A DNA stretch of 24,215 bases from a virus. The notes below the pieces were generated by a model. That model had not been told where the DNA came from, did not search any database, and saw only the letters and a program-made list of their open reading frames with translations. The translations under genes and the position numbers were made by a program. Positions 3,817-23,496 of the stretch are shown piece by piece; positions within the stretch are counted from its first letter, which is position 1; every line of letters begins with the position of its first letter. Where the stretch lies: positions 1-24,215 of the IMG/VR virus record IMGVR_UViG_3300034101_001784, one strand, 5' to 3'.

Positions 3817-4028
3817 AATTTTTCTCCTTCCTTCATTACTTGTCTTAACTCAAAGTAATTGATGCCTAATACTTCTGCAATCTTCCTTAGCGTTGATATG
3901 CTTGGGTTGTTTCTTCCATTCTCAATAAAGTTAATTGCTTGAATGGTAAGCCCACATTTCTGTGCAAGTTCTTTTTGCATCAACCCTACATCTAAACGCT
4001 TTTCCCTGATATATTTTCCAATGCTCAT
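3813..4028 (-). CDS. XRE/Cro-family helix-turn-helix regulator
   Basis: A 71-residue DNA-binding protein that is little more than one XRE domain: MSIGKYIREKR, then MQKELAQKCGLTIQAI (helices 2-3), FIENGRNNPSISTLRKI and AEVLGINYFELRQ. This is the Cro/C1 pattern seen in phage and host repressors. I start at the ATG at 4026-4028 because a GGGGGTGAT site sits six bases upstream and the codon overlaps the previous stop (ATGA); a second in-frame ATG at 4049 would add seven residues. It is made with the SpoVS-like protein by translational coupling. Candidate operators are the inverted repeats in the promoter region 5767-5893, which is inference. With no integrase in view, lysogeny cannot be concluded. 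Confidence 0.85.
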   Translation of the reverse strand: MSIGKYIREKRLDVGLMQKELAQKCGLTIQAINFIENGRNNPSISTLRKIAEVLGINYFELRQVMKEGEKL

Positions 4029-4366
4029 TTTGTTATCACCCCCTTCCATCTTGTTTTACCTATAAAAACAAGTTCTTCAACAAACTTGTTATCTGGCACA
4101 ATTTTATATTGGTTGGTATGCAACATATCTTTGATTGCCTGACCAGCAAGCCCAACCCACTTACTAATACCTATTTTTGTCTTCGTGTGAATGTCTAAGT
4201 ATCTTGATGAAAATACATAGTTACAAGTCTTGAAATCTTGATATGCAATAGGCTCATTGTCACACATAAGATATGTTCTGTTCTGGGCTGTTTCACTTTG
4301 CCAGAAGCAGTGTCTAATGTTAGTCCATTTCAAGTTAAACAATTCTTTTTTTGGTTTTAAGCTCAT
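4025..4366 (-). CDS. Hypothetical early protein
   Basis: A 113-residue protein of unknown function, starting MSLKPKKELFNLKW at the ATG overlapping the previous stop (ATGA); a TTG two codons upstream is also in frame. It is basic and rich in aromatics, with Trp at several points and three Cys (in the RHCFW, YLMCD and KTCNY segments) that do not form a recognisable zinc motif. No membrane segment. It lies between another unknown gene and the XRE regulator within the early operon, so a role in early take-over of the host or in regulation is possible. Nothing in the sequence identifies it. Confidence 0.55.
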   Translation of the reverse strand: MSLKPKKELFNLKWTNIRHCFWQSETAQNRTYLMCDNEPIAYQDFKTCNYVFSSRYLDIHTKTKIGISKWVGLAGQAIKDMLHTNQYKIVPDNKFVEELVFIGKTRWKGVITK

Positions 4367-4644
4367 AACCAATACCTGTTTGATTTTACTATCTTATTCC
4401 AGACAGCAAACAAGCCTTCTTCATCAAGTGCCATTGCATAACCAAACAAATACATCACAATATAATCTACATTTTTTAAGTTCTCACTTATCAATTTTCC
4501 AAAATGTCTTAACTCACAAGAGAAACAGCTGTCACTAATCTCTGTGAAAAACAATTCTATTTGACTGCCTTTGTATAGATCCAGCTTCCTGTTAGCTTCT
4601 TTTACAAAATCTCTCAACATATTTCTTTCAACTCTTCCAATCAT
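4363..4644 (-). CDS. Hypothetical early protein
   Basis: A 93-residue protein of unknown function. The ATG at 4644 has a clear AAGGAG seven bases upstream and overlaps the stop of the SprT-like gene (ATGA). The N-terminus is basic and helical (MIGRVERNMLRDFVKEANRK), followed by two close cysteines (SCFSCEL, C-x2-C) and a hydrophobic stretch, VDYIVMYLFGYAMAL, that is more likely a buried helix than a membrane anchor. It is translationally coupled at both ends to its neighbours, which supports it as a real gene of the early operon. Confidence 0.55.
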   Translation of the reverse strand: MIGRVERNMLRDFVKEANRKLDLYKGSQIELFFTEISDSCFSCELRHFGKLISENLKNVDYIVMYLFGYAMALDEEGLFAVWNKIVKSNRYWL

Positions 4645-5156
4645 TTTTTTTCTCCTTTGAAATCTTCATATTTCACAATGTCTAATAAAAACCGTTCATC
4701 ATATTTTGGGTGGCACAAACTGCAACTTCTTCTACCAACAAACTTGTAATATCTTCCAACCACATTATGCACTTTGCAGATGCCCAGATATTTTGGTTTG
4801 ATTTCTTTTTCATCTCCTGTTGCACTTGCACATCTTTTTGTTCTTGCTCCAACAATTTTGCAAGCATCATAGAAGAAGTGATTGTGACCTGCACCAGCGT
4901 TACCGTTGTAATGATAACTATATGCGTGTGCCACTTCGTGTTTTAATGTGTCCTTCATTTCTTCTAAGTTTGTGCATTCAATATGGATCCTGCTTAGATA
5001 TATTTTCTTTTCATTGTAATTACATAAACCTAATCTTCTTTTTGCTTTGTCAAGTTCAAATCTGTAACCAAGTAATTCTATTGAGTATTTTTCTTTTAAT
5101 TCATACCAAAGATTTTGTAATGTTTCTAACTTTTCTGCAAATGTAATTTGTTCCAT
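4641..5156 (-). CDS. SprT-like zinc metalloprotease-fold protein
   Basis: A 171-residue protein with the SprT/Spartan pattern. HEVAH (H73, E74, H77) is the zinc-binding active site, and H91 in AGHNHFF fits the third ligand of the HGxxF position. A C-terminal zinc ribbon follows: C127-x2-H130 and C145-x2-C148 (CKVH, CSLC). SprT domains in cells digest proteins crosslinked to DNA; in phages the substrate is not known. The N-terminal 70 residues are the helical part of the SprT domain. The ATG at 5156 follows AGGGG at a normal distance, and the stop overlaps the next start. It sits early in the replication operon, consistent with a role at replication forks or against a host DNA-bound protein (inference). 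Confidence 0.85.
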   Translation of the reverse strand: MEQITFAEKLETLQNLWYELKEKYSIELLGYRFELDKAKRRLGLCNYNEKKIYLSRIHIECTNLEEMKDTLKHEVAHAYSYHYNGNAGAGHNHFFYDACKIVGARTKRCASATGDEKEIKPKYLGICKVHNVVGRYYKFVGRRSCSLCHPKYDERFLLDIVKYEDFKGEKK

Positions 5157-8643: not shown

Positions 8644-8805
8644 TTATTTTATTTCTGCACTATTCATTGGCAAATCATTTTTAGCAATCAAAAGGTCCTT
8701 ATATTCTTGTTCAGTCAATACAAGTTCTATTTCATCATCACTCATTTTTTGTGAAGACCAAGAAATGATTTTTCCATTTTTCTTGACCACCCATAAAGTT
8801 TTCAT
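8644..8805 (-). CDS. Small hypothetical protein (53 aa)
   Basis: A 53-residue protein that fills the gap after the fibre gene: MKTLWVVKKNGKIISWSSQ, then an acidic stretch (SDDEIELVLTEQEYKDLL) and the end NSAEIK. The ATG at 8805 follows a GGGAGA site at about seven bases and lies directly after the stop of the fibre gene; its TAA at 8644 is two bases before the next start. The tight packing and binding site support it as real. Its small size and place after the fibres suggest a tail-fibre assembly or accessory protein, with no motif to confirm this. Confidence 0.55.
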   Translation of the reverse strand: MKTLWVVKKNGKIISWSSQKMSDDEIELVLTEQEYKDLLIAKNDLPMNSAEIK

Positions 8806-8806
8806 A

Positions 8807-9487
8807 TTATCTCTCCCAAGTTATTCTATATCTAAAAGTTACACCAGCACTATGTCTAAATTGAATGGTGCTTGATGAAGCAGCATAGATTTCAAAGTTA
8901 TCAGCAAAAGTGCTTGTTCCGTTATTCCAGACCATTCTATGAAATCTTGATTGACCTGTTGTTGTGCTTCTTTGGTTTGTATCAGTCAAATCAATTCTTC
9001 CTGTCCATACAGTTGTAGTTGTATTGGCTGCTGTGTTTGATAATTGCACAGTAGCAAATCTAAAACCTGAAACACTATAAGCAGATGTTGATAAAGTATT
9101 TTGAGCCAATGAAGCAATGTCTGTGGTTGAGTATAATTCTGGTCCTATTGACAAACCAGCAGTAGCTGGTGTTACCCAATTTCCAAAATAATGCACACCA
9201 TTGTAACCTGTTGCTTGTAAAAAAGCATTCTGTGAAGCAGCACCACCAGCTACTAAGTTTTGTCCTGTTGAGCTGTAATAAATAACACCACCAGCAGTTG
9301 TAATGCTTGATGAGCCTGTCCCACCCCTTGCAATAGCAAAAGTTCCAGATGTTACATCTGCTGCTGCGTGTGTATGAGCAGATGGTGTAAAAGTAGCTGG
9401 CTTGTTAAGTATTTGTGACCACTCAGTCTGCACATCTACATTTTCCCACGCTGCCCCTGTATATCTTTTTAAGCGTATATTGGGCAT
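8807..9487 (-). CDS. Tail fibre / minor structural protein
   Basis: A 226-residue structural protein. The N-terminus MPNIRLKRYTGAAWENVDVQ is a short docking module shared with the neighbouring fibre gene. It is followed by a fibre signature, HTHAAADVTSGTFAIARGGTG (residues 38-58; the HTHxxxDV and ARGGTG motifs), then a Ser/Thr/Asn-rich beta domain ending in a compact, aromatic-rich C-terminus (FRHSAGVTFRYRITWER), probably the trimeric receptor-binding tip. HTH repeats in fibres can bind metal ions. It lies 12 bases after the longer fibre gene with only a weak AGG site. It very likely takes part in host recognition; the receptor cannot be predicted. Confidence 0.75.
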   Translation of the reverse strand: MPNIRLKRYTGAAWENVDVQTEWSQILNKPATFTPSAHTHAAADVTSGTFAIARGGTGSSSITTAGGVIYYSSTGQNLVAGGAASQNAFLQATGYNGVHYFGNWVTPATAGLSIGPELYSTTDIASLAQNTLSTSAYSVSGFRFATVQLSNTAANTTTTVWTGRIDLTDTNQRSTTTGQSRFHRMVWNNGTSTFADNFEIYAASSSTIQFRHSAGVTFRYRITWER

Positions 9488-9499
9488 TGATTTGACCTA

Positions 9500-10789
9500 T
9501 TATACTGCATCAAACCAAATGTCATCAGTAACCATTCCTGCTGGTGTTCCATCATAATAAACACGCACTCTGCCTGACAAACCGTTTAATTGAGTTTGCA
9601 CAGCAGAAGTTACACCAGATAAGTAACCAAGTTCAGTAGCAGTCACAGCACTTACTGCAACCTTACCAGATCCATCACTTGCTAATGCTCTTGAAGCAGT
9701 CAAGTTTGATGAAACAATAGTTGTTGCACCACCTGTGATAGTGGCTTGTTTTGCGTTAAGTTGCGTTTGTATCGCAGAAGTTACACCATCAAGATAACCA
9801 ATTTCTGTGCTATCAACATTACCAATAGAAGTTGTTGAAGGTAAAACCACAGTGCCTGTAAAAGTTGGTCCAGCAAGATTGGCTTTTGCGTTTAATTGTG
9901 TTTGAATGTTTGAAGTCACACCATCTGTGTAATTTAATTCAGTGGCAGTAGCAGTCAAGTCACTAATGTTTGCCACAGTATGCGTGTGTGAAGTTGCTGC
10001 CTTGCCATCTAATTGAGTTTGAATGGCACTTGTAACACCATCAATATAATTTAACTCTGTGGTGGTGGCAGTAATACCATCTAAAACATTTAATTCACTT
10101 GCAGTGGCAGTGACATCAGTTGCCCCTGCTGCCAATAAATGTGTGTGGCTTGTGTTAGTAAAGTTTTGTCCATCAATCAATGCCTTCAATCTTGCATCAG
10201 TGATAACATTGTTCCCTGCTAAGTTAGCATAAACAGTTTGACTTGATAAGGTCACAATACCTTTGACATTGGTTGCAGCATCTTCATAAGTATTTTCTAC
10301 AACACCAAAATGATAAACAAATGGTGTTCCACTTGTTCCAGCACCTGTGATTTTTGTAATAACAAGCCAATCACCAGCTTCTAATGATGCACCTGTTACA
10401 CCACCACCATAAGTTCCATCATCACTTGGGTTAAGTTCTGTTCTATACCAGAGTGAGCCAATTTGCACAGGTGTTGCTTGTGCAGTCACACCAGCACTTC
10501 CATTTGCAACCCAATAATAACCTAATGCACTTCTACCAAGCGTTATTGCATCAGCTCTTGCAGTATCTGCCAAACTTGACAAAGTAGAAGGCCCAGAAGT
10601 TATTGTGCTGTAAAAATATAAACTATCAAAAACAGCGTTTGGTAAGTATGCAATGTTTATTTTGTCACTGCCATCAAAAATTGCACTTGTTCCATCAGTG
10701 GCAACAATGTTTTGTGCCTTCGTTACAGGAAATTGATTTTCCCAAGTTGTTGTAGTTCCGTTATAGCGTTTGATTTGTATTTTAGACAT
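9500..10789 (-). CDS. Tail fibre protein with tandem TELxYxDGVTSxIQTQL repeats
   Basis: A 429-residue fibre. It begins MSKIQIKRYNGTTTTWENQ, related to the start of the next fibre gene, has a probable globular region at residues about 45-180, and then a shaft from about 230 to 405 made of repeats of the form TELNYIDGVTSAIQTQL plus linker. An HTH segment lies at 215-217 and again at 268-270, as in other phage fibres. The C-terminus (GRVRVYYDGTPAGMVTDDIW) is a short cap. The ATG at 10789 has TAGGAG about ten bases upstream. Repeats of this type form trimeric shafts that vary in copy number between relatives. It is a host-contact protein together with the products on either side. Confidence 0.8.
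   Translation of the reverse strand: MSKIQIKRYNGTTTTWENQFPVTKAQNIVATDGTSAIFDGSDKINIAYLPNAVFDSLYFYSTITSGPSTLSSLADTARADAITLGRSALGYYWVANGSAGVTAQATPVQIGSLWYRTELNPSDDGTYGGGVTGASLEAGDWLVITKITGAGTSGTPFVYHFGVVENTYEDAATNVKGIVTLSSQTVYANLAGNNVITDARLKALIDGQNFTNTSHTHLLAAGATDVTATASELNVLDGITATTTELNYIDGVTSAIQTQLDGKAATSHTHTVANISDLTATATELNYTDGVTSNIQTQLNAKANLAGPTFTGTVVLPSTTSIGNVDSTEIGYLDGVTSAIQTQLNAKQATITGGATTIVSSNLTASRALASDGSGKVAVSAVTATELGYLSGVTSAVQTQLNGLSGRVRVYYDGTPAGMVTDDIWFDAV
9578..10099 (-). repeat. Tandem coding repeats of the fibre shaft
   Basis: Within the fibre gene, residues 231-404 hold four clear copies of a 20-residue unit (T-E-L/I-x-Y-x-D/S-GVTS-x-I/V-QTQL-x-x-K/L; copies start near residues 245, 283, 328 and 385) and one partial copy (SELNVLDGITATT, near 232). 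Spacing between copies varies from 38 to 57 residues, so these are modules with linkers and not a strict tandem array. The DNA copies are similar enough to recombine. Confidence 0.75.
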
Positions 10790-12207: not shown

Positions 12208-14748
12208 TTATACAATAGTTGTGCTATTGAGAAACAGTCTTTGTGTCAAATTGCCATTTCTGGCCACAATAATTTTTCCATCTAAATCACAGATTGCCCA
12301 ACTAACCATAGTGGTAGCATTTGTGTTCCACCAAGAAGTTCCAGAAGATGTTGGGTTGATGTATATTTGATTTCCACTTGTAAGCACTTCAATAAGGCCA
12401 CCAGCAACAACCAGCGTTCCTTTATAGTCTGTATCTAAGTTGTTGTAGGTTAGTGTGGTTGAGTAAGCAATTCTATAAACCATATTGGTTGTTCCAGAGT
12501 AAATAAATGGGCTATACTCTAAAAACTTATCTGTAAAAAATGCGTTGGCTGATTTTCTAAAATGAAATTGTATGGTTTCAGTTGTTATTTCTCTATTATC
12601 TTTATAGCGTTTTTTATAGTCCAATAAACCACCAAAATTGAATGGGCCTGTGTTGATAAAGTTATAAATCTTCTTTGTATCATCAACTCTTGTATATGTT
12701 TGGATCCCAGAAGGCAAGCTGTAAGTTCCGTTTGTTTCAATTACAGGCAACTTTGCTGCTACTTCTGTTCCAAATTGAAGATTGACTGTCCCAAATGTAT
12801 CATCTGGGTTAGTGAAGTTTAAGTTATTAAGAGCAAGATTTCTAATGCCACCTTGTTTATACAATCTAACTGCAATAGCATAAAATCTTCCCAAGTTATT
12901 GACATAACCGTTTTTTCTCATTGATTGCACACTTGCTGCTAATACTCTAAAATCAGTTTCAATAGATACAGCCACATTGGCATTGTCTGCCATTCTCACA
13001 TTATAAATGATGCTGTTGCCAACCCAATGTGCTGTTCCTTCCATTACAAATTGTGATGAAAAGGTATGTGCAAATGGTGCTGTTAATGCTTGATTTGTGA
13101 GTGTTTGCACCAAAGCACCTTGTATTTTTTCAGTGGCTTTTGCAAACTGTAAGAAATAGTTATTGATGCCAACTGTGTTGTTTGCACCACTTGTGGTTGA
13201 TAGTGTGAAAATGTTTTCACTAAGATGATTGCTTAATAGTGCGTTTGTAGCTGATGCAATTTCTGTGTATCTCTTAGAAGTATTGATACCAGCAAACATA
13301 TTGTCTTTGGCATAGTGCTTACTTAATGTGCCTTTGAAGTTATAAAAACCATCATTGAAAATAATTTCTCTTGTTGTCAAAATATATTCATCAAGATAGT
13401 CATTTGCCACAGGTATATCATTATAGTTTGCATATCTTCCTGTGATAATCAATTCTTCATTACCCACTCTATTCACAAACTCTTGTTGTTGTTTGCCCAA
13501 TGACCTTGCATAAACTTCTGCTGTGGTTTGACCGTTTATCAAAACACTTTGATTTCTTGTTGGTATATCTTTGATAACTCTAAATGTAATATCATCAGCT
13601 GAGAGATATTCAACAAAAAACAAAATAGTCTTATCAACCATTGCATCATATTCAGTAGCATTAAAGAAGTTTTTATAAACATTGTTTGTATCATCTAACA
13701 CCCTAAATAAAACATTGACCAAAGCAGCTCTCCCATTGGTATATGGGATCCAAGTGTCTTCTCTATAACCAAGACCAGAGATTGTGTTACCACCTTGTTT
13801 ATAATAAAGGTAATTTCTTCTATATTTTTTTGTTGAAGTATCAGCTATAAAACCTGATGCGTTGGTGTTATAAAAGGTGTCATAAACTGTTTGTTCAACC
13901 ACTCTGCTTGTAATGTCAAGATCCTGCACAATGCTGTCAAAACCTGTTGTAATCAGTATTTTTGCAGTTACTTTTTTAATCTGGAAAATAGGCTTTTGTA
14001 AAACTATTTCTTGATTGTTGCTGGTTAAAAAAGCTTGTTCTGTTGTTCTAACTGTTACAAACTCACCTGTGGTATTTACATTCACATCATAAACATTGCT
14101 TGCTTGCACTTCTATTGATGATGCATACTCTGCAACATTCCTGTTTATCTCATAGCTGCTAAGCTTTGTTTCATCAATTACATTTTTCTTTTCAAATAAA
14201 TCAAGCAAAGAAATTACATTGGATCCTGTGATTGTAACCACACAACCAACAACACTAAGAAGGTCATTTAGCACTTCAAACAGCGTTGGTCTATTCCAGC
14301 TAAACTCTGGGCAGGTCACAGATGCTGTTTTATTTTGCAGGGCTGATGAAATAGTATAACTTGGTGCATAAACTTCAAGAAGCTCTTGAATGACCTTATA
14401 GATGGTTTTGTTGGCAGTTCCATCTAAACTGTTTGTTACCGTTTTTGATGGTAAAACAATTCTTTGCAACTTTAATGTTGTTGAAGCAAGACCAAGCGTG
14501 TAACTATATTTTTTATTGCCTTCAAGATTGATTGCCTTAGCATTGATTTGAGCTACTACCATTCTAATTACCTTAGACACTTCATAAGTAATCACAACTT
14601 CATCTAATGGCTCAATATCAAGTTTATTTGTCTGTGGTATGACCAAAACACCTGTATTAAGCTCTTTGCTTAAAATGTCTGTAATAACAAGCCCATATTT
14701 GAAGCTTACTGATTGTCCATTGACTGTGATTGAGTTTATTGTTGGCAT
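12208..14748 (-). CDS. Large tail-tip / baseplate protein (846 aa)
   Basis: The second longest gene of the window, with 846 residues. The first about 250 residues (MPTINSITVNGQSVSFKYG, LLEVYAPSYTIS, FSWNRPTLFEVLNDLLSVVG, SSYEINRNVAEYASSIEVQ) resemble the gp27/Tal-type hub domains that cap the tail tube. The remainder is beta-rich with long Asn/Thr-rich stretches, like baseplate or spike proteins. No lysozyme, amidase or peptidase motif could be seen, although tail-tip proteins often carry one for wall digestion. It is preceded by the 144-residue protein in the tape-measure slot and followed by the BppU-like gene, which supports a hub/tip role. The binding site is weak (GGAAG about twelve bases before the ATG). 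Annotation rests mainly on position and size. Confidence 0.6.
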   Translation of the reverse strand: MPTINSITVNGQSVSFKYGLVITDILSKELNTGVLVIPQTNKLDIEPLDEVVITYEVSKVIRMVVAQINAKAINLEGNKKYSYTLGLASTTLKLQRIVLPSKTVTNSLDGTANKTIYKVIQELLEVYAPSYTISSALQNKTASVTCPEFSWNRPTLFEVLNDLLSVVGCVVTITGSNVISLLDLFEKKNVIDETKLSSYEINRNVAEYASSIEVQASNVYDVNVNTTGEFVTVRTTEQAFLTSNNQEIVLQKPIFQIKKVTAKILITTGFDSIVQDLDITSRVVEQTVYDTFYNTNASGFIADTSTKKYRRNYLYYKQGGNTISGLGYREDTWIPYTNGRAALVNVLFRVLDDTNNVYKNFFNATEYDAMVDKTILFFVEYLSADDITFRVIKDIPTRNQSVLINGQTTAEVYARSLGKQQQEFVNRVGNEELIITGRYANYNDIPVANDYLDEYILTTREIIFNDGFYNFKGTLSKHYAKDNMFAGINTSKRYTEIASATNALLSNHLSENIFTLSTTSGANNTVGINNYFLQFAKATEKIQGALVQTLTNQALTAPFAHTFSSQFVMEGTAHWVGNSIIYNVRMADNANVAVSIETDFRVLAASVQSMRKNGYVNNLGRFYAIAVRLYKQGGIRNLALNNLNFTNPDDTFGTVNLQFGTEVAAKLPVIETNGTYSLPSGIQTYTRVDDTKKIYNFINTGPFNFGGLLDYKKRYKDNREITTETIQFHFRKSANAFFTDKFLEYSPFIYSGTTNMVYRIAYSTTLTYNNLDTDYKGTLVVAGGLIEVLTSGNQIYINPTSSGTSWWNTNATTMVSWAICDLDGKIIVARNGNLTQRLFLNSTTIV

Positions 14749-14749
14749 T

Positions 14750-15184
14750 TTAATATCTGCTTCCTTCTACTGACACTTTGCCAAGTAGTTCATTTCTAAA
14801 ATCTTGTTCTCTGGTGGCATTCATTTGTGAGATACCAGAGTTAATGAGATTGAGTGTGTGTTTTGACAAAACATAAACAAGACCAACAGGCCCACCTTTC
14901 ATTACAGCTGCAATGTCTGTAACCATTTCAATAGCGTTATTGATGCTCTGTGTTGCCACATAATTACCTGTGATATTTCCATATTGATTGATACCATTGA
15001 TGGCTTGTGTTTTGGCAACATTGATAATACCTGCAATCAGTGCTTGTTGAGCAGCAGAAGGTTTGCCTTCTTCTTTGTCTTGGTCTTTTGCAGTTTCACC
15101 AGCAGATTTTGCTGTGCTTTCTTGGCTTGCAGATGCACCAGATGCTGTTTTTCCTTCTCTTACAATAATTTCAATGTTTGGCAT
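14750..15184 (-). CDS. Small tail protein in the tape-measure position
   Basis: A 144-residue protein. Residues about 10-45 are a disordered Ala/Ser/Lys/Glu-rich segment (TASGASASQESTAKSAGETA); residues about 45-125 are Ala/Gly/Ile-rich helices with a hydrophobic stretch near 95-112 (VMKGGPVGLVYVLSKHTLNL); the end is polar. It lies exactly between the tube/terminator-like gene and the tail-tip gene, where long-tailed phages have a tape measure of 600 or more residues. It could be a very short tape measure or an ejected internal protein with a membrane-active helix. AGGTGA lies a few bases before the ATG at 15184. It shares the MPNI start with other tail genes. Function is inferred from position. 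Confidence 0.55.
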   Translation of the reverse strand: MPNIEIIVREGKTASGASASQESTAKSAGETAKDQDKEEGKPSAAQQALIAGIINVAKTQAINGINQYGNITGNYVATQSINNAIEMVTDIAAVMKGGPVGLVYVLSKHTLNLINSGISQMNATREQDFRNELLGKVSVEGSRY

Positions 15185-15191
15185 ATTTCAC

Positions 15192-15926
15192 CTATTTTGA
15201 GAATGCAAGGCTGATAATTGGCAAAGATTGGTTTTCACTTTGCAAGGCAGCATTCTCCAACACCATTGTATGCGTTTCTTCTGTGTTATTGTCACTAAAA
15301 ACAAACTTCACAGCAAAAGATGTGCTTGGGCTGATAAGGCCTTGTCTAATAGTTCTAATTTTGTTCAACAAAACATTGTTTTTATTTATCATTGTGCAGC
15401 TAAACTTAACCACAGAGTTTTGTATCAATGAAGTGTTAATAAGATTGTTACCAATTCTTTCATTGTTAATGACAGAAACAAACACTAAACTTCTTGATGT
15501 GGTTTCATATTCCACATTATCAATAAACACTTGTTTAATCTCACTAACATTCCTTGAAATAATCAGTGTTGCTGCAATAACAAATTGATGCACAAAGTTG
15601 GATCCTGTTGCATCAAAGTTTTGTAACAACATTGGTGTGCCATAAATAGCTTGCACATAATCAATAGTGCCATCACCATTGTTGTAATAAAAAGGTAAAT
15701 TGTTATAGGTCTTAGAAAAATCTTCTAATAAAGTTTTTGTAGCCTGTAAATCATTGGTGTATGCACTAAGTTGTATAGGTATAATCTTGCTATCTTTGTA
15801 ATTATTTCCAGCAAGATATTTAATAACTAAGGCATTGCCTTCACCGTTATATTGATAGTTGATTTCATCAGTAATTTCAAAAGCAGTAAAAGTAGCTAAG
15901 CTTTTTATGTAATTAAGGTAATTCAT
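15192..15926 (-). CDS. Tail terminator / tube-like protein
   Basis: A protein of 244 residues. The N-terminal half (YIKSLATFTAFEITDEINYQ, IPIQLSAYTNDLQATKTLLE) reads like tail-terminator or minor-capsid proteins that close the tube. The C-terminal half (IKQVFIDNVEYETTSRSLVF, TFAVKF-type strands, ALQSENQSLPIISLAFS) has the strand order and ending of tail tube proteins. The two may be fused here. The start is uncertain: an AAAGGAG site at 15941-15947 is two bases from a GTG at 15938 and fourteen from the ATG at 15926; I list the ATG. Either start overlaps the previous gene. The assignment is moderate and from pattern recognition only. Confidence 0.5.
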   Translation of the reverse strand: MNYLNYIKSLATFTAFEITDEINYQYNGEGNALVIKYLAGNNYKDSKIIPIQLSAYTNDLQATKTLLEDFSKTYNNLPFYYNNGDGTIDYVQAIYGTPMLLQNFDATGSNFVHQFVIAATLIISRNVSEIKQVFIDNVEYETTSRSLVFVSVINNERIGNNLINTSLIQNSVVKFSCTMINKNNVLLNKIRTIRQGLISPSTSFAVKFVFSDNNTEETHTMVLENAALQSENQSLPIISLAFSK

Positions 15927-16203
15927 ATTTGCTATCACTGCTCCTTTGTTGTGCTGCTGTTCTTACAGCTCTCTCAACCCATTGATAATTTACTCTATTT
16001 TTGTTTGGTCCTGTTTTATTTGGTGTTTTCTTTGCATTTACAACTTCTGCATAATCATAACCACTTTTTGTAGGCCCAGAAATAATAATCTTTTGATAAG
16101 TGCCATAATCTTCATAAGTAATATGAGTAATCATATTTGTGGTATCAACAGGGCAAGTTGCTAACAACTTTGTATAAATGGTAAGGTAAAATGGTTGCTG
16201 CAT
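15913..16203 (-). CDS. Neck / tail-completion protein (HK97 gp10-like)
   Basis: A 96-residue protein beginning MQQPFYLTIYTKLLATCPVD. The pattern of a helix with xLLATCPVDT, then two strand pairs (HITYEDYG, KIIISGPTKSGYDYAEVVN) and a basic helical end (YQWVERAVRTAAQQ) fits the HK97 gp10 family of neck proteins: the ARxPVDTGxL and YAxxVExGT positions are recognisable but diverged. It links the head connector to the tail. Its ATG shares one base with the previous TAA (TAATG), and its end overlaps the following gene, as expected in a densely packed head-tail operon. Confidence 0.65.
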   Translation of the reverse strand: MQQPFYLTIYTKLLATCPVDTTNMITHITYEDYGTYQKIIISGPTKSGYDYAEVVNAKKTPNKTGPNKNRVNYQWVERAVRTAAQQRSSDSKYELP

Positions 16204-16565
16204 TATCTTCGTAACCTGATTTCTTTTCTAAAACTTGGTCTATTGCTAAACTCTTTGGCAGGGTTAAAGTCTTCTGCCACAATGTTATCAACAATGTATA
16301 TTTCTCCATCTCCACCATATAAGACAAAATCATCAACTTCTAAATCATTGATGTTATCTGTGGTTTCAATAGTAATAAGCTTCATAGTTTTCTTCATATT
16401 TCCCACAGCCATTGTTTGCTCACTATAAGCAACTTTGTCTGTTGAGTAAAAAATACCTTGTGCTACTGCACCTTTAATAAGTTTCATATTATCTACATAT
16501 TCTCTTTTGTAGTATATGCTTCTATCAAGCTTGTTAGCTCTGCTTTGGTATAAATCAATTCCCAT
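16203..16565 (-). CDS. Head-closure / head-tail joining protein
   Basis: A 120-residue protein (MGIDLYQSRANKLDRSIYY...). The middle has a strand-rich barrel-like core (MKLITIETTDNINDLEVDDF, VLYGGDGEIYIVDNIV), in which a short LEVDDFVLYGGDGEIYIV unit resembles the D-x-hhhx-G-x-xYxV core of head-closure proteins such as SPP1 gp16, and the end is basic (FRKEIRLRR). Its position as the second gene after the coat protein matches the stopper, which seals the portal once DNA is packaged. It follows the connector gene by two bases. The family call relies on context as much as on sequence. Confidence 0.55.
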   Translation of the reverse strand: MGIDLYQSRANKLDRSIYYKREYVDNMKLIKGAVAQGIFYSTDKVAYSEQTMAVGNMKKTMKLITIETTDNINDLEVDDFVLYGGDGEIYIVDNIVAEDFNPAKEFSNRPSFRKEIRLRR

Positions 16566-16567
16566 AA

Positions 16568-16990
16568 TTAAATATATGTGTCAATAATGCCAAATGGGTT
16601 TTTATGAGCAATGTTGCACATACCAGCATTCTTCCAAACCATAAAAGCATTGGGTGCTAATTCTGGTGCCACAGATGTGGTTGTTCTGGCAATACTAACT
16701 GCTTGCACAGACAAGTCACCATTTCTCCTAAGATAATCAATTTGATGTAGCACACCCTTCTTAAAAGCAGCTAAGTCAAAGATTGGGTTGCCATCTTTGT
16801 CTTTTGGATCCTGAGTGGTTACTCTAAAATGATGCGTTAAGTAATCTAAGCACCAAGTTTCCACACGGTATAAAAAAATATCAACAGCATCACTGATATT
16901 GTCATAGTTAGAGCCTTTAAGTTCCAACGCTAAATCAATACCTGACCATTCATAATAATCTTGTTTAGTTACATAAATTGGCTCTGCCAT
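16568..16990 (-). CDS. Head-tail connector (adaptor) protein
   Basis: A 140-residue, mostly helical protein (MAEPIYVTKQDYYEWSGIDL, VDIFLYRVETWCLDYLTHHF, AFKKGVLHQIDYLRRNGDLS). Helices around a central FLYRVETWCLDYL segment and the later KKGVLHQIDYLRRN match the fold pattern of gp6/gp15-type adaptors, which bind under the portal. It is the first gene after the coat protein and its terminator-like hairpin, with an AAGGAG site before the ATG at 16990. A short C-terminal tail (NPFGIIDTYI) may contact the stopper. Confidence 0.6.
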   Translation of the reverse strand: MAEPIYVTKQDYYEWSGIDLALELKGSNYDNISDAVDIFLYRVETWCLDYLTHHFRVTTQDPKDKDGNPIFDLAAFKKGVLHQIDYLRRNGDLSVQAVSIARTTTSVAPELAPNAFMVWKNAGMCNIAHKNPFGIIDTYI

Positions 16991-18944: not shown

Positions 18945-19181
18945 TTATAAGATGTCCCACATCTTTTCTGTTGGTATGTAGCCTTTTCTTAAAACCTTTT
19001 CTGCTTCTGGGTAAAATCTTATGATTTTTTTGTTTTTAATGCACCACTCAACTGCTTTTGTGGCTTCTTCTATCTGGGCCAGATTGTCCTTCATTAAAAA
19101 CAATGTCAAATAAGGCTCATCTTTTCTAAACAAGTTATAATATCTTTTGATTTGATACTCTAAAATATCTTTTTCCATCAT
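18945..19181 (-). CDS. Small hypothetical protein in the head module
   Basis: A 78-residue helical protein (MMEKDILEYQIKRYYNLFRK ... YIPTEKMWDIL) of unknown function. The ATG pair at 19181 and 19178 follows AGGAG at nine bases and overlaps the end region of the minor head gene closely. It contains a tyrosine-rich first helix and one WCIKNKK segment. Small genes between a minor head protein and the scaffold are common in phages, but the role is not known. Confidence 0.6.
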   Translation of the reverse strand: MMEKDILEYQIKRYYNLFRKDEPYLTLFLMKDNLAQIEEATKAVEWCIKNKKIIRFYPEAEKVLRKGYIPTEKMWDIL

Positions 19182-19182
19182 A

Positions 19183-21828
19183 CTATCTATCTCCTATTGT
19201 CTTTGGAAAAGCTCTAAAAACTGATTGCTCTTTTGTTCTATCAACAACAGCAACACCAGCTGCCATAATTGCTTCGTGGGCTTCAAAAATATCTGGGTAG
19301 TCCTTTTTCAACGCATTATACAGTCTTGGTGCGTGCATACGCAAGGTCACTAAGTGTGTAAAAATCTCAACATTCCTATTGTCTTGTTCTCTAAAATAAT
19401 CTTGACCGTGTCCCCTTGTAATCACATTTTGAAGTTCATAGCTCCTACCACCACTTAAAGCATCAAAAAAATCTTCAACTTGGCTCATAGATTGTTTTAT
19501 ACCCAGATTTTTTCTTTCTATAATATCAACTTTTGGTTGCAGCAAAGTGTTAATAGCGTTTTCTTCTTGTCTAAGTTTTTTATATTCATTATTTAGAGCT
19601 TGTTGTTCTTTCTCTATTTCTTCTAATCTTTTTCCAATCTCATCATTTCTTCTGTCCATTTCTTCTTCTGTAATTTTCTTTTTGTCAAAGTATAAATCTA
19701 TGTTTTCACTAAGTTGTCTTTGCAGTGTTCCTGTTTCTTTATTTAGCTCACTAACTTTATCTAAAACTTTTATTTGTTCATCATTTAATTTTTGCCAATC
19801 TGTTCCAGCTCTTAATTTATCTATCTCTTTTTCTTCTTCTAATCTTATTTTTTGTATTTCTTTGAATGCGTTAGTTTGTAAGACAGTTTTTTCTTCCCAT
19901 TTTTCCACATCTTCTTTTCTCATTCTTCCACCAACTTTTACAAGCTGGGCTTTTTCTATGGATCGTGAAAACCTTATAGTGTTTTTCCACATTTCTACTT
20001 GTTCTTTATCGTATTTGCCACTGCTTTCAACAGCATCAATAACTCTTTGCACTTCTTCATCAGTAAGTTCTACAAGGTCAAAATAACTTGTTCCTTCCCT
20101 TATACTTTGTCCTGTCAAATTACGGTAAGCAGATGCTAATGGTTTTGCTGTTCCAACAAAACTAAGACCACCATAGTTGCCTAAATTAAACTTAGCTCTC
20201 AAATTATAATCAATAGCGTGTCCCAATTCGTGTGTATAAGTTATAGCGTTTCTTCCCTTTGTCAAATCTTCATTTATTTCTTGCACAGATATGTAGTTAG
20301 AAAAAGGTTTGTAATAACCTTCATTTTGATGCAACACAACAGTAAAGTTTTTTTCTAAAACATTATCTAATTCCTTAAAATAATATGCTGTGATTTTTCT
20401 TCCATCATCTGTTTCAGGCTCATTGTCTATATTTGCAAATCTGCTTTGCCAATTATCATAAGTTCTTTTTTTGGCTTCACCTTTTGTCATATTTGAGTTT
20501 GGTTTTTTCCAATCTATTTCATAAATCTTTTTAACATAAACCTTTTTTTCTTCTGGCACTGCATAATGTGATGCAACAGTTTCATTCATCTTAACTTCTT
20601 CTTTGGATCCAACAGGTGCTGGTGCTGGTGGCAGATTGGTCACAGGTGTGGGTGGTTGCCCTTTATCTTTGAAAAGGTTGTATTTATAGCCCAAATCTTT
20701 AATTAAGATTTTTCTGGTTTCTCTCCTGCGTTCTCTTGATAAGTCTGGGTTTTGTTGCAACAGTTCTCTTAGTTTTTCTTGGCTGTTTGATATTGACAAT
20801 CTTTTTCTTCTAATTGCATCATCAAAATCAGTGCTATTTGTTCTCTTTTTTAGCAATTCAAAAGTTTGCAGGGCTGATTTGTTTTTTCTTATGTTGCGTT
20901 CATAAGCTCTTTGTTGTTTTAGTGCTTCATAGTTTTCAGGCCTATAATTTCCCCTGACACTATCTGTTTTTGTTTTTACAGCGTTCAAACTCTCATTACC
21001 AATACCTTCATCAATACTAATTGGTATAAGTCTGTGTCTGCAATTTGGTCTTGTGGTTAAAAACGGTGCTTCTTCACGCACTTCCTGCACAGACAACATT
21101 TGTTTCTGTTTGATTGCATTTGAAATCAGTTGCTTAGCTTCATCAGTCAGTCTAAAACTTTGATAATCTGCGTTGTAATAAATCTTGCCTTGATAATCAG
21201 CGTGGTCATCAGCACAATCTCCAAACTCATCACACAAGAAAAAAACTATGTTTGCTTGCTTAGCAATTTCAATTTGTTGCTCACCAATTTCTTGCTGTAT
21301 GCCTGTTCTTACAGCCATCTCCATATATTCTCTATAACCAACTTTTCTGCCACCTTTATAAGTAACAGGCAAACCATTTTCTATGCCAGCTTCTGTTTGC
21401 TTAGCAATGCTTGCTTTTAGGTCAGGTATAAACTGTGCAGATGTATTAAACTTATTCAGCCTATAAATCTTTTGCACTTGTTTATTCTGCTCACCTTCTG
21501 CTGATTGCAGCAAAATCTTGCTGCCTTTTTTAATTTCAGCTTCCAAAGGTGCTGTGTTAATGCCAGCATAAGTCCCAATGTTTTTGGCTATGTTGATTTG
21601 TAACTTCTCTGCTTGTTTTGACAAAACCAAAAGCTTTTGATGCAAAGCTTTTTTTTGTGAAGCTTGTTTTATCAAATAATCTTTTGGGCTTGTTACTTTT
21701 TCAATATCAATGTTGAGTGACAGTGCAATCTCTGTAAGCATATTTGCTTCTGTTGCATCTACCACTTCTCTCATTATCATTGAGATGTCATCAGTAACAT
21801 CATTGATGTCTTTTTTAGTTGTGGCCAT
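19183..21828 (-). CDS. Minor head protein (phage_min_cap2/MuF type) with HELGH metallopeptidase-like C-terminal part
   Basis: An 881-residue fusion. Residues about 1-270 are a phage minor capsid domain: CDEFGDCADDHADYQGK at 199-215 and RPNCRHRL at 260-267 are the metal-binding-like Cys/His pattern of this family. Residues about 300-420 are a charged linker with a Pro-rich stretch near 391-405. From about 440 comes a second domain with THELGHAID: H533, E534 and H537 form the HExxH zincin motif, and the Glu in NVEIFTHL (E821) may be the third ligand. A long coiled coil (about 655-765) separates the two halves of this second domain. Minor head proteins enter the host or line the portal, so the C-terminal part could be an injected protease or a maturation protease. 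It follows the portal by 12 bases. Confidence 0.8.
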   Translation of the reverse strand: MATTKKDINDVTDDISMIMREVVDATEANMLTEIALSLNIDIEKVTSPKDYLIKQASQKKALHQKLLVLSKQAEKLQINIAKNIGTYAGINTAPLEAEIKKGSKILLQSAEGEQNKQVQKIYRLNKFNTSAQFIPDLKASIAKQTEAGIENGLPVTYKGGRKVGYREYMEMAVRTGIQQEIGEQQIEIAKQANIVFFLCDEFGDCADDHADYQGKIYYNADYQSFRLTDEAKQLISNAIKQKQMLSVQEVREEAPFLTTRPNCRHRLIPISIDEGIGNESLNAVKTKTDSVRGNYRPENYEALKQQRAYERNIRKNKSALQTFELLKKRTNSTDFDDAIRRKRLSISNSQEKLRELLQQNPDLSRERRRETRKILIKDLGYKYNLFKDKGQPPTPVTNLPPAPAPVGSKEEVKMNETVASHYAVPEEKKVYVKKIYEIDWKKPNSNMTKGEAKKRTYDNWQSRFANIDNEPETDDGRKITAYYFKELDNVLEKNFTVVLHQNEGYYKPFSNYISVQEINEDLTKGRNAITYTHELGHAIDYNLRAKFNLGNYGGLSFVGTAKPLASAYRNLTGQSIREGTSYFDLVELTDEEVQRVIDAVESSGKYDKEQVEMWKNTIRFSRSIEKAQLVKVGGRMRKEDVEKWEEKTVLQTNAFKEIQKIRLEEEKEIDKLRAGTDWQKLNDEQIKVLDKVSELNKETGTLQRQLSENIDLYFDKKKITEEEMDRRNDEIGKRLEEIEKEQQALNNEYKKLRQEENAINTLLQPKVDIIERKNLGIKQSMSQVEDFFDALSGGRSYELQNVITRGHGQDYFREQDNRNVEIFTHLVTLRMHAPRLYNALKKDYPDIFEAHEAIMAAGVAVVDRTKEQSVFRAFPKTIGDR

Positions 21829-21840
21829 AAGACATCACAC

Positions 21841-23496
21841 CTACTCTTTTATTTCTTCTTGGTCTTGCCCTTGCTCTTGTAAGTCTTCTTCATTTTCTTG
21901 TCCTTCTTCTTCAACTTCTTCATTTTGCTCTCCTTCCTGATTGGATCCTGTTTCATCACCATCATAAAGTGTGTCTGCAATGTCTGGTGATTGTCTATTC
22001 ATAAAGCTTTGAATGTAAGAAACAATCTCATCTTTGTTAGGTGCATCTGGGAAAACTTTTTCTACATATTGAGCAGGTGTGATTGCACCACTTGTCAATG
22101 CAGATAAGTAACTATCAATAATCTTGTTAAGGAAATAATCTTGATAGTGGGCTTTGGCTTCTTCTTCTGTTTCACCATACCACTTTTCTCTAAACTCAGG
22201 CACAGACATAATGCCAGCTTGCACATCAAGTCTATCACGGTCCATTTCACTGCCTTTATCTTCAAAGATGCTGTCATCAAACTTAACCTTAATATCAAAA
22301 TCTTCCATAGGGTTAAAGATAACTTCTGTGAAGTCATTACTTGCATAAATAATTGCTTTGGTCATTCTAATTAAAACTTCTTCAAGCAAGATTTGATGCT
22401 TCCTAATGTTTCTAAATAAGCTGCTATTGTCAGCCACAACTTGTGTTGCAGTTGCCACCATTGAGCCATCAAACTTCAAAAAGTTTTCACCTAAGCCACA
22501 CTTCATTGCAATGTAAGACATTTCAGTATTGATGCCACGCACATAAGCATCATAACGCAACTCATCTTTTTGAGTGGTGATAATTGGTTTGCCTTCACTG
22601 TTATCAGGTAGGTGATAAAATAGCGTGTCATACGGATCAAATGTTCTGGTCATCTGGCCATCTTGTTTATTGATTGTCCAAGCTTCTGTGCTAACAAACA
22701 TTCTTTTTCTGCCAAGCACATATTCCAAGTCAAAGCCATCATATTTGTTATCAATAGCCTTAAAGTTGTCTAAACAGTTTGCATAAATAGACACTCCAAG
22801 CTCATCATCTGTAAGCTCAGTTAAGAAATTACTACTGATGTTTGGCTTAATGATAAAAAACCAAGCAATCTGTGATTGGGTGTTAAACACAGTGTGTTCT
22901 AACAACTTGCCTTTACTATCAACAACATAACTATGTATTTGATAAATGCCATTCTCATCTTTGATATGCACAGCATAATTTGTGTAGTCACTTCCTGTGC
23001 TTACAAACGCACATTCTGTGATTTCTTTATTCTCTGTGGTAATAGGGTGGATCTTGGTTTCATTTACAAAGTCAATACAGATATAGGCTTGTTCTTTGTT
23101 GAGCTTGCCTGTGTTTTCTCCTACTTGCAAATCTTTAATGCTCATAACCAAAGCACCATAGCCCAATGCAAAGCTCTTTTCTACACCTTCATTGGCCTTC
23201 TGCCAGAAGTTTGTTTTGTATAAAATATAATCAAGCTTTTGCTTTTCTTCATCTGGCAAGATAATGTCACAGCGTTCATTCAGCAACAGGTTGGCCCAAG
23301 TTTCAGCTACAAACTTTGGCAAGCCCATTGTTTTCCGTTCCATATCTAAATAGTTTGTCCCATTGTATAGCCTGTAATTATGAAAACCCATCACCTTGCC
23401 CCTATACCAGCTCAGCCAATCTTTTGCATAAAAAGATTTTCTTGGTAATGCCTTTTGATAGCCCAATGCATCTGCAATAACTTGTGTAATGTCCAT
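21841..23496 (-). CDS. Portal protein, SPP1 gp6-like
   Basis: A 551-residue portal. SWYRGKVMGFHNYRLYNGTN and MGLPKFVAETWANLLLNERCD near the N-terminus match the conserved start of SPP1-type portals, and VRGINTEMSYIAMKCGLGEN (about residue 315) is a typical segment of the clip/stem region. The last about 40 residues are extremely acidic (Glu/Gln runs, with EEVEEEGQENEEDLQEQGQD), a tail that may sit inside the DNA channel or bind the terminase. The dodecamer would form the DNA gate of the capsid. TAGGAG lies before the ATG at 23496. It lies between terminase and minor head protein, the expected order. Confidence 0.9.
   Translation of the reverse strand: MDITQVIADALGYQKALPRKSFYAKDWLSWYRGKVMGFHNYRLYNGTNYLDMERKTMGLPKFVAETWANLLLNERCDIILPDEEKQKLDYILYKTNFWQKANEGVEKSFALGYGALVMSIKDLQVGENTGKLNKEQAYICIDFVNETKIHPITTENKEITECAFVSTGSDYTNYAVHIKDENGIYQIHSYVVDSKGKLLEHTVFNTQSQIAWFFIIKPNISSNFLTELTDDELGVSIYANCLDNFKAIDNKYDGFDLEYVLGRKRMFVSTEAWTINKQDGQMTRTFDPYDTLFYHLPDNSEGKPIITTQKDELRYDAYVRGINTEMSYIAMKCGLGENFLKFDGSMVATATQVVADNSSLFRNIRKHQILLEEVLIRMTKAIIYASNDFTEVIFNPMEDFDIKVKFDDSIFEDKGSEMDRDRLDVQAGIMSVPEFREKWYGETEEEAKAHYQDYFLNKIIDSYLSALTSGAITPAQYVEKVFPDAPNKDEIVSYIQSFMNRQSPDIADTLYDGDETGSNQEGEQNEEVEEEGQENEEDLQEQGQDQEEIKE

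Follow-up and report, generated by a model that had tools for sequence, protein, structure and literature searches.

The window, meaning the whole stretch of 24,215 nucleotides analysed here (positions 1 to 24,215 of IMG/VR record IMGVR_UViG_3300034101_001784), carries a gene for a minor head protein with a predicted zincin metalloprotease domain at its C-terminus, placed between a portal gene and a small gene (Table 1). The initial annotation had described a minor head protein fused to a metallopeptidase-like domain, and this architecture was borne out. The PF06152 domain (Phage_min_cap2, named MuF2 by Jamet et al., PMC5576092) scored 61.3 bits against a Pfam cut-off of 26.3, the protein matched phrog_581 'minor head protein' (E 1e-18), and a Pro-rich linker and the C-terminal zincin follow. 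The Pro-rich character of the linker is common to the window protein and its relatives L002–L004, and PP pairs occur in the linkers of these proteins and of L069. Beyond the 78-aa gene lie a scaffold-like gene and a P22-type coat gene. No integrase was recognised within the 24 kb of the window, and no relatives of P0001 were found in the genome contigs searched.

Elsewhere in the window, a second metalloprotease-like gene, SprT-like (PF10263, E 7e-12), is located in the left part at 4641–5156, and a fibre-like protein with repeat units of type 'ATELNYIDGVTSAIQTQL' is encoded at 9500–10789. Between the head-completion genes and an 846-aa protein (12208–16990), no gene of the usual tape measure length was seen, and the tail module looks unusually short.

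Table 1. Positions in the window of the head protein gene, its adjacent genes and its domains and motifs.
Feature	Position	Strand	Evidence
Portal protein, 551 aa, directly upstream of the MuF2-zincin gene	21841..23496	minus	phrog_533 E 6.6e-82
MuF2-zincin minor head protein, 881 aa	19183..21828	minus	ATG start, 881 codons, no internal stop; PF06152, phrog_581
Phage_min_cap2 (MuF2) domain, residues 149-357	20758..21384	minus	PF06152 E 1.1e-16
Pro-rich linker QPPTPVTNLPPAPAPV, residues 391-406	20611..20658	minus	Sequence
Predicted C-terminal zincin with helical insert, residues 441-881; fast-diverging half	19186..20508	minus	Identity step, AlphaFold model, family alignment
HELGH catalytic motif, residues 533-537, in helix 526-546	20218..20232	minus	H, E, H invariant in family alignments
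Predicted two-helix hairpin inside the zincin, residues 678-773	19510..19797	minus	AlphaFold pLDDT mostly 86-95; coiled-coil structural matches
GHGQDY motif, residues 806-811	19396..19413	minus	H807 and Y811 conserved in family
NVEIFTH, residues 819-825, with third zinc-ligand candidate E821	19354..19374	minus	Invariant Glu (alignment A7), modelled helix 815-832
78-aa gene, directly downstream of the MuF2-zincin gene; candidate immunity partner	18945..19181	minus	

Relatives and active-site motifs

Relatives of the window protein were found in four viral contigs, among which L002 is the only complete one and retains HELGH, GHGxxY and NVEIFTH. The identity between the window protein and L002 was 70.3% over residues 1–440 and dropped sharply near residue 440, to 29.8% over residues 441–881, whereas the other head and tail genes compared in the same pair were 73–92% identical. 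Within the divergent half, identity to L002 peaked around the active-site motifs, at 48% over residues 521–560 and 45% over residues 801–840. At the sequence level, this sharp C-terminal divergence resembles that of polymorphic toxins.

A search with the Glu-side motif first reached minor head proteins of unrelated phages, namely Listeria B054 gp4, Stenotrophomonas BUCT702/704 and Flyfo myovirus Tbat2_7. Further relatives were found in Streptococcus Javan202, Javan266 and Javan351, Enterococcus VEsP-1, Dulem virus 32 and Clostridioides phiCD418, and two viral-contig scans and one bacterial-genome scan added 53 and 8 loci, respectively. Together with the window, 71 loci in 23 clusters at 70% identity carry HExxH, a later H...Y motif and Glu, in a tally that counts only loci fitting this pattern and leaves out L070, whose contig contains no HExxH half, and L077, where HExxH is followed by a stop. 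In the alignments A6 and A7 of the tblastn relatives, the H, E, H, D, H, Y and E columns were invariant or nearly so, and a profile of the window/L002 pair matched two independent sets of relatives over the Glu half with probabilities of 86.7% and 94.0%.

These alignments uphold the initial assignment of HELGH at residues 533–537 as a correct HExxH motif, and that of E821 as the third-ligand candidate, which aligned with the relatives' invariant Glu of 'E-x-F-A'. Homologues without the His residues were searched for, and none was found. On sequence grounds, a chance origin of the HExxH motif is excluded, because it is kept in a relative that is 30% identical in this half and across a wide family. 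Y811 is a candidate catalytic Tyr by comparison with lethal-factor and PPEP enzymes. As a stand-alone protein, the zincin was not seen in the phage collection; clear matches lay in MuF proteins, except for a fragment in the satellite phage Javan343.

The protein encoded by Listeria phage B054 gp4 (YP_001468708.1), annotated 'minor head protein and DNA pilot', likewise joins a MuF domain to a C-terminal HExxH...H...Y...E zincin and is followed by a 56-aa gene. It differs from the window protein in having PF04233 instead of PF06152, an H-to-E spacing of 82 against 288, and no Pro-rich linker. Among named families, the match of DUF6782 to the window protein was below the Pfam cut-off, and a search of NCBIfam returned nothing useful. 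The MPTase zincins of phage polyvalent proteins (PMC5512222) share the HExxH helix, the Glu helix and variable inserts between them, but the Pfam MPTase-PolyVal family matched only L002 (E 0.17) and L003 (E 0.031), both below cut-off, and the window protein was not listed.

Predicted fold and the insert between the catalytic helices

The window domain was modelled with AlphaFold from a 17-row alignment. The model was mediocre overall (pLDDT 70.5, pTM 0.69) and displayed three strands, the HExxH helix (526–546) and the Glu helix (815–832) in zincin order, with a helical stretch and a hairpin sitting between the two catalytic helices. Structure searches with this model were dominated by the hairpin and listed coiled coils and other long-helix proteins and no zincin, which reflects a limit of the search and is not counter-evidence on the fold. 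Similarly, PDB sequence searches with the whole protein and with the C-terminal pair returned mostly coiled-coil matches.

The compact relative L042, whose domain is of the same type as that of Listeria B054 gp4, was predicted with higher scores (pLDDT 85.5, pTM 0.85). Its best VIA match was the lethal factor protease domain (Z 9.5, 157 residues, rmsd 4.0), followed by PPEP-1 (Z 7.4) and Certhrax (Z 7.2). With Foldseek, even the best E-value was weak (0.045), and siphovirus minor capsid proteins ranked on top in the viral library (E 1.4e-4). The model thus indicates a lethal-factor/PPEP-like zincin fold for the compact relative, with the same order of HExxH, Tyr and Glu. The window protein differs from these enzymes in its lack of significant sequence similarity to them, its fusion to a phage head protein and its large insert.

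In the window model, the hairpin consists of antiparallel helices 678–714 and 721–773 (37 and 53 residues) joined by a short turn; about 130 more residues, also helical, precede this coiled-coil part of about 96 residues. In a crude test, heptads in the insert segment were no better than in shuffles, 142 of 500 of which reached the same level, so the term 'coiled coil' rests on the model and the structural matches.

The H-to-E spacing was 81–166 residues in 21 clusters, 270 in L002 and 288 in the window, the two long spacings belonging to the window's own clade. The arrangement had also been called unusual for a zincin, which is true only of its length; variable inserts between the two catalytic helices of phage zincins have already been described at this position (Iyer 2017, PMC5512222). 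The extreme insert length is variation within an already known kind.

The small downstream gene

An ORF of about 50–90 aa was present directly 3' of nearly every MuF-zincin gene examined; L041 runs out at the edge of its contig. Most of these small ORFs share the loose pattern Y...F....P...I..nk. The 78-aa copy in the window ranked first among 2001 sequences (2000 of them shuffles) against a profile of the small ORF, with a weak E-value of 0.036. In L002, the small ORF after the MuF-zincin gene (3910–4163) appears split over two frames.

Among 295 genomes of one order, the profile gave five strong matches, three of which adjoin MuF-zincin genes (twice in G003, once in G265). The fourth (G252:C4:278067-278294; L085, L100) has a zincin-like stub of 31 residues and a CRISPR array next to it, and the fifth, in G197, occurs without a toxin, in tandem with a second similar ORF. 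At the G252 locus, the small ORF adjoins CRISPR repeats and Cascade-like genes, and the 31 residues before it look like the end of a MuF-zincin. The tandem ORFs of G197:C2 (L099, reverse complement, 8648–8890 and 9033–9263) lie downstream of an ArpU-like gene, and the same TGCTTTTTTGGTATACT stretch precedes each. The record of Streptococcus satellite phage Javan343 (L017, 2501–2958) has both the 3' end of a MuF-zincin gene and an intact small ORF, the same one that follows the MuF-zincin gene in Javan351.

MuF (PF04233) genes were carried by 78 of the 295 genomes. Near those without a zincin, no strong match to the small-ORF profile was found in the same genomes, an absence that is partly by construction because the profile was built from zincin-linked genes and so favours them. 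Behind MuF toxins of other kinds there may be small ORFs of a different type, and the zincin gene of G154 has a B054-type small ORF beyond the reach of the profile.

The C-terminal divergence, together with a small gene that lies behind almost every relative and in some places persists by itself, fits an immunity partner, and the 78-aa protein may have this role. A broader proposal, which we hold tentatively and at somewhat less than even chance, is that these small genes form an unnamed immunity family directed against the MuF protease branch. As proposed, the family would occur in Firmicutes phages and a Saccharibacteria contig and would persist without an intact toxin (in tandem, beside a CRISPR array, and in the record of a Streptococcus satellite phage). 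In the window it would be paired with a protease that gained a long hairpin for substrate or inhibitor binding.

Proposed function and alternatives

For MuF toxins, packaging into the phage head and delivery along with the DNA have been proposed (PMC5576092). In the survey of Jamet et al. (2017, PMC5576092), metallopeptidases accounted for 20% of 191 MuF toxins, and a small ORF followed the gene in 89.4%. The window protein shares with the MuF metallopeptidase toxins a MuF2 N-terminus, a gene position after the portal gene, a predicted C-terminal metallopeptidase and a small downstream ORF; its insert is about 200 residues longer than in the most compact relatives, and its toxicity is a prediction. 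Neutralisation by an adjacent non-enzymatic protein has been shown experimentally for Bxa, a Bacteroides prophage MuF fusion (PMC11699363), which resembles the window locus in its MuF fusion and, if the 78-aa protein has that role, in its adjacent immunity protein, but is an ADP-ribosyltransferase and not a protease. The MuF toxins with laboratory data in these two papers are ADP-ribosyltransferases and alarmone synthetases.

By analogy with MuF toxin delivery and Bxa neutralisation, we consider it probable that the window protein belongs to the MuF-type polymorphic toxins of tailed phages, as a head-borne protease with a candidate immunity partner. The analogy with effector delivery by MuF toxins, raised in the initial annotation, is supported. 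Gene order and family suggest that, through the MuF2 domain, a single copy or a few copies would sit at the portal within the head. Judging from conservation and the compact relative's fold, H533, H537 and E821 would bind zinc in a lethal-factor/PPEP-like zincin, with E534 as the putative general base and Y811 probably stabilising the transition state. The helical insert is predicted to leave the core between the catalytic helices, where the inserts of relatives are shorter, and would probably serve substrate or partner binding rather than catalysis. Following the MuF literature, the zincin domain would travel with the DNA into the newly infected cell and cut one of its proteins there, and the 78-aa protein would bind and inhibit the zincin in the producing or lysogenic cell.

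Two alternatives without a toxin were weighed against this explanation. The zincin could be a processing peptidase that cuts the protein it belongs to, with the Pro-rich linker as one conceivable site, or cuts other head proteins at assembly or ejection; self-processing was proposed for phage zincins by Iyer et al., who give the cleavage of P1 DdrB as an example (PMC5512222), and both the closeness of the relative's fold to Pro-Pro endopeptidases and the PP pairs in the linkers agree with it. However, we regard this as unlikely: linker self-cleavage ranks lower because B054- and BUCT704-type relatives have no Pro-rich linker, and neither the 30% identity against 73–92% in head genes nor a small partner gene surviving alone is expected of a self-cleaving assembly enzyme. 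A little less likely still is a non-toxic helper acting after injection, for instance by degrading a defence or regulatory protein, with the small downstream protein as an assembly factor. Low-toxicity MuF peptidases that steer the lysis-lysogeny decision were suggested by Jamet et al. (PMC5576092), and the ArdC antirestriction zincin ranks among the lower structural matches; an assembly factor would not be expected to persist alone, and the small ORF was not seen with the zincin-tuned profile beside the other MuF genes surveyed.

It is highly improbable that the functional novelty lies in the insert, as a stalk that holds the protease in position near the portal or takes it along through the tail. 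Although the hairpin is predicted with high confidence, the insert is the least conserved part of the protein (10–15% identity to L002 at residues 641–760), that of L002 is shorter and different, and most relatives have only 81–166 residues between the ligands. No support was found for the earlier suggestion of a long arm reaching the portal channel.

For the favoured explanation, a head-borne protease toxin with a candidate immunity partner, the architecture and the position of the insert are already described in general terms (PMC5576092, PMC5512222). About one in five MuF toxins of the published survey bears a protease (PMC5576092). The conserved active site, the compact relative's predicted fold and the candidate partner gene make this MuF protease branch directly testable at the bench, and the candidate immunity family most deserves further attention.
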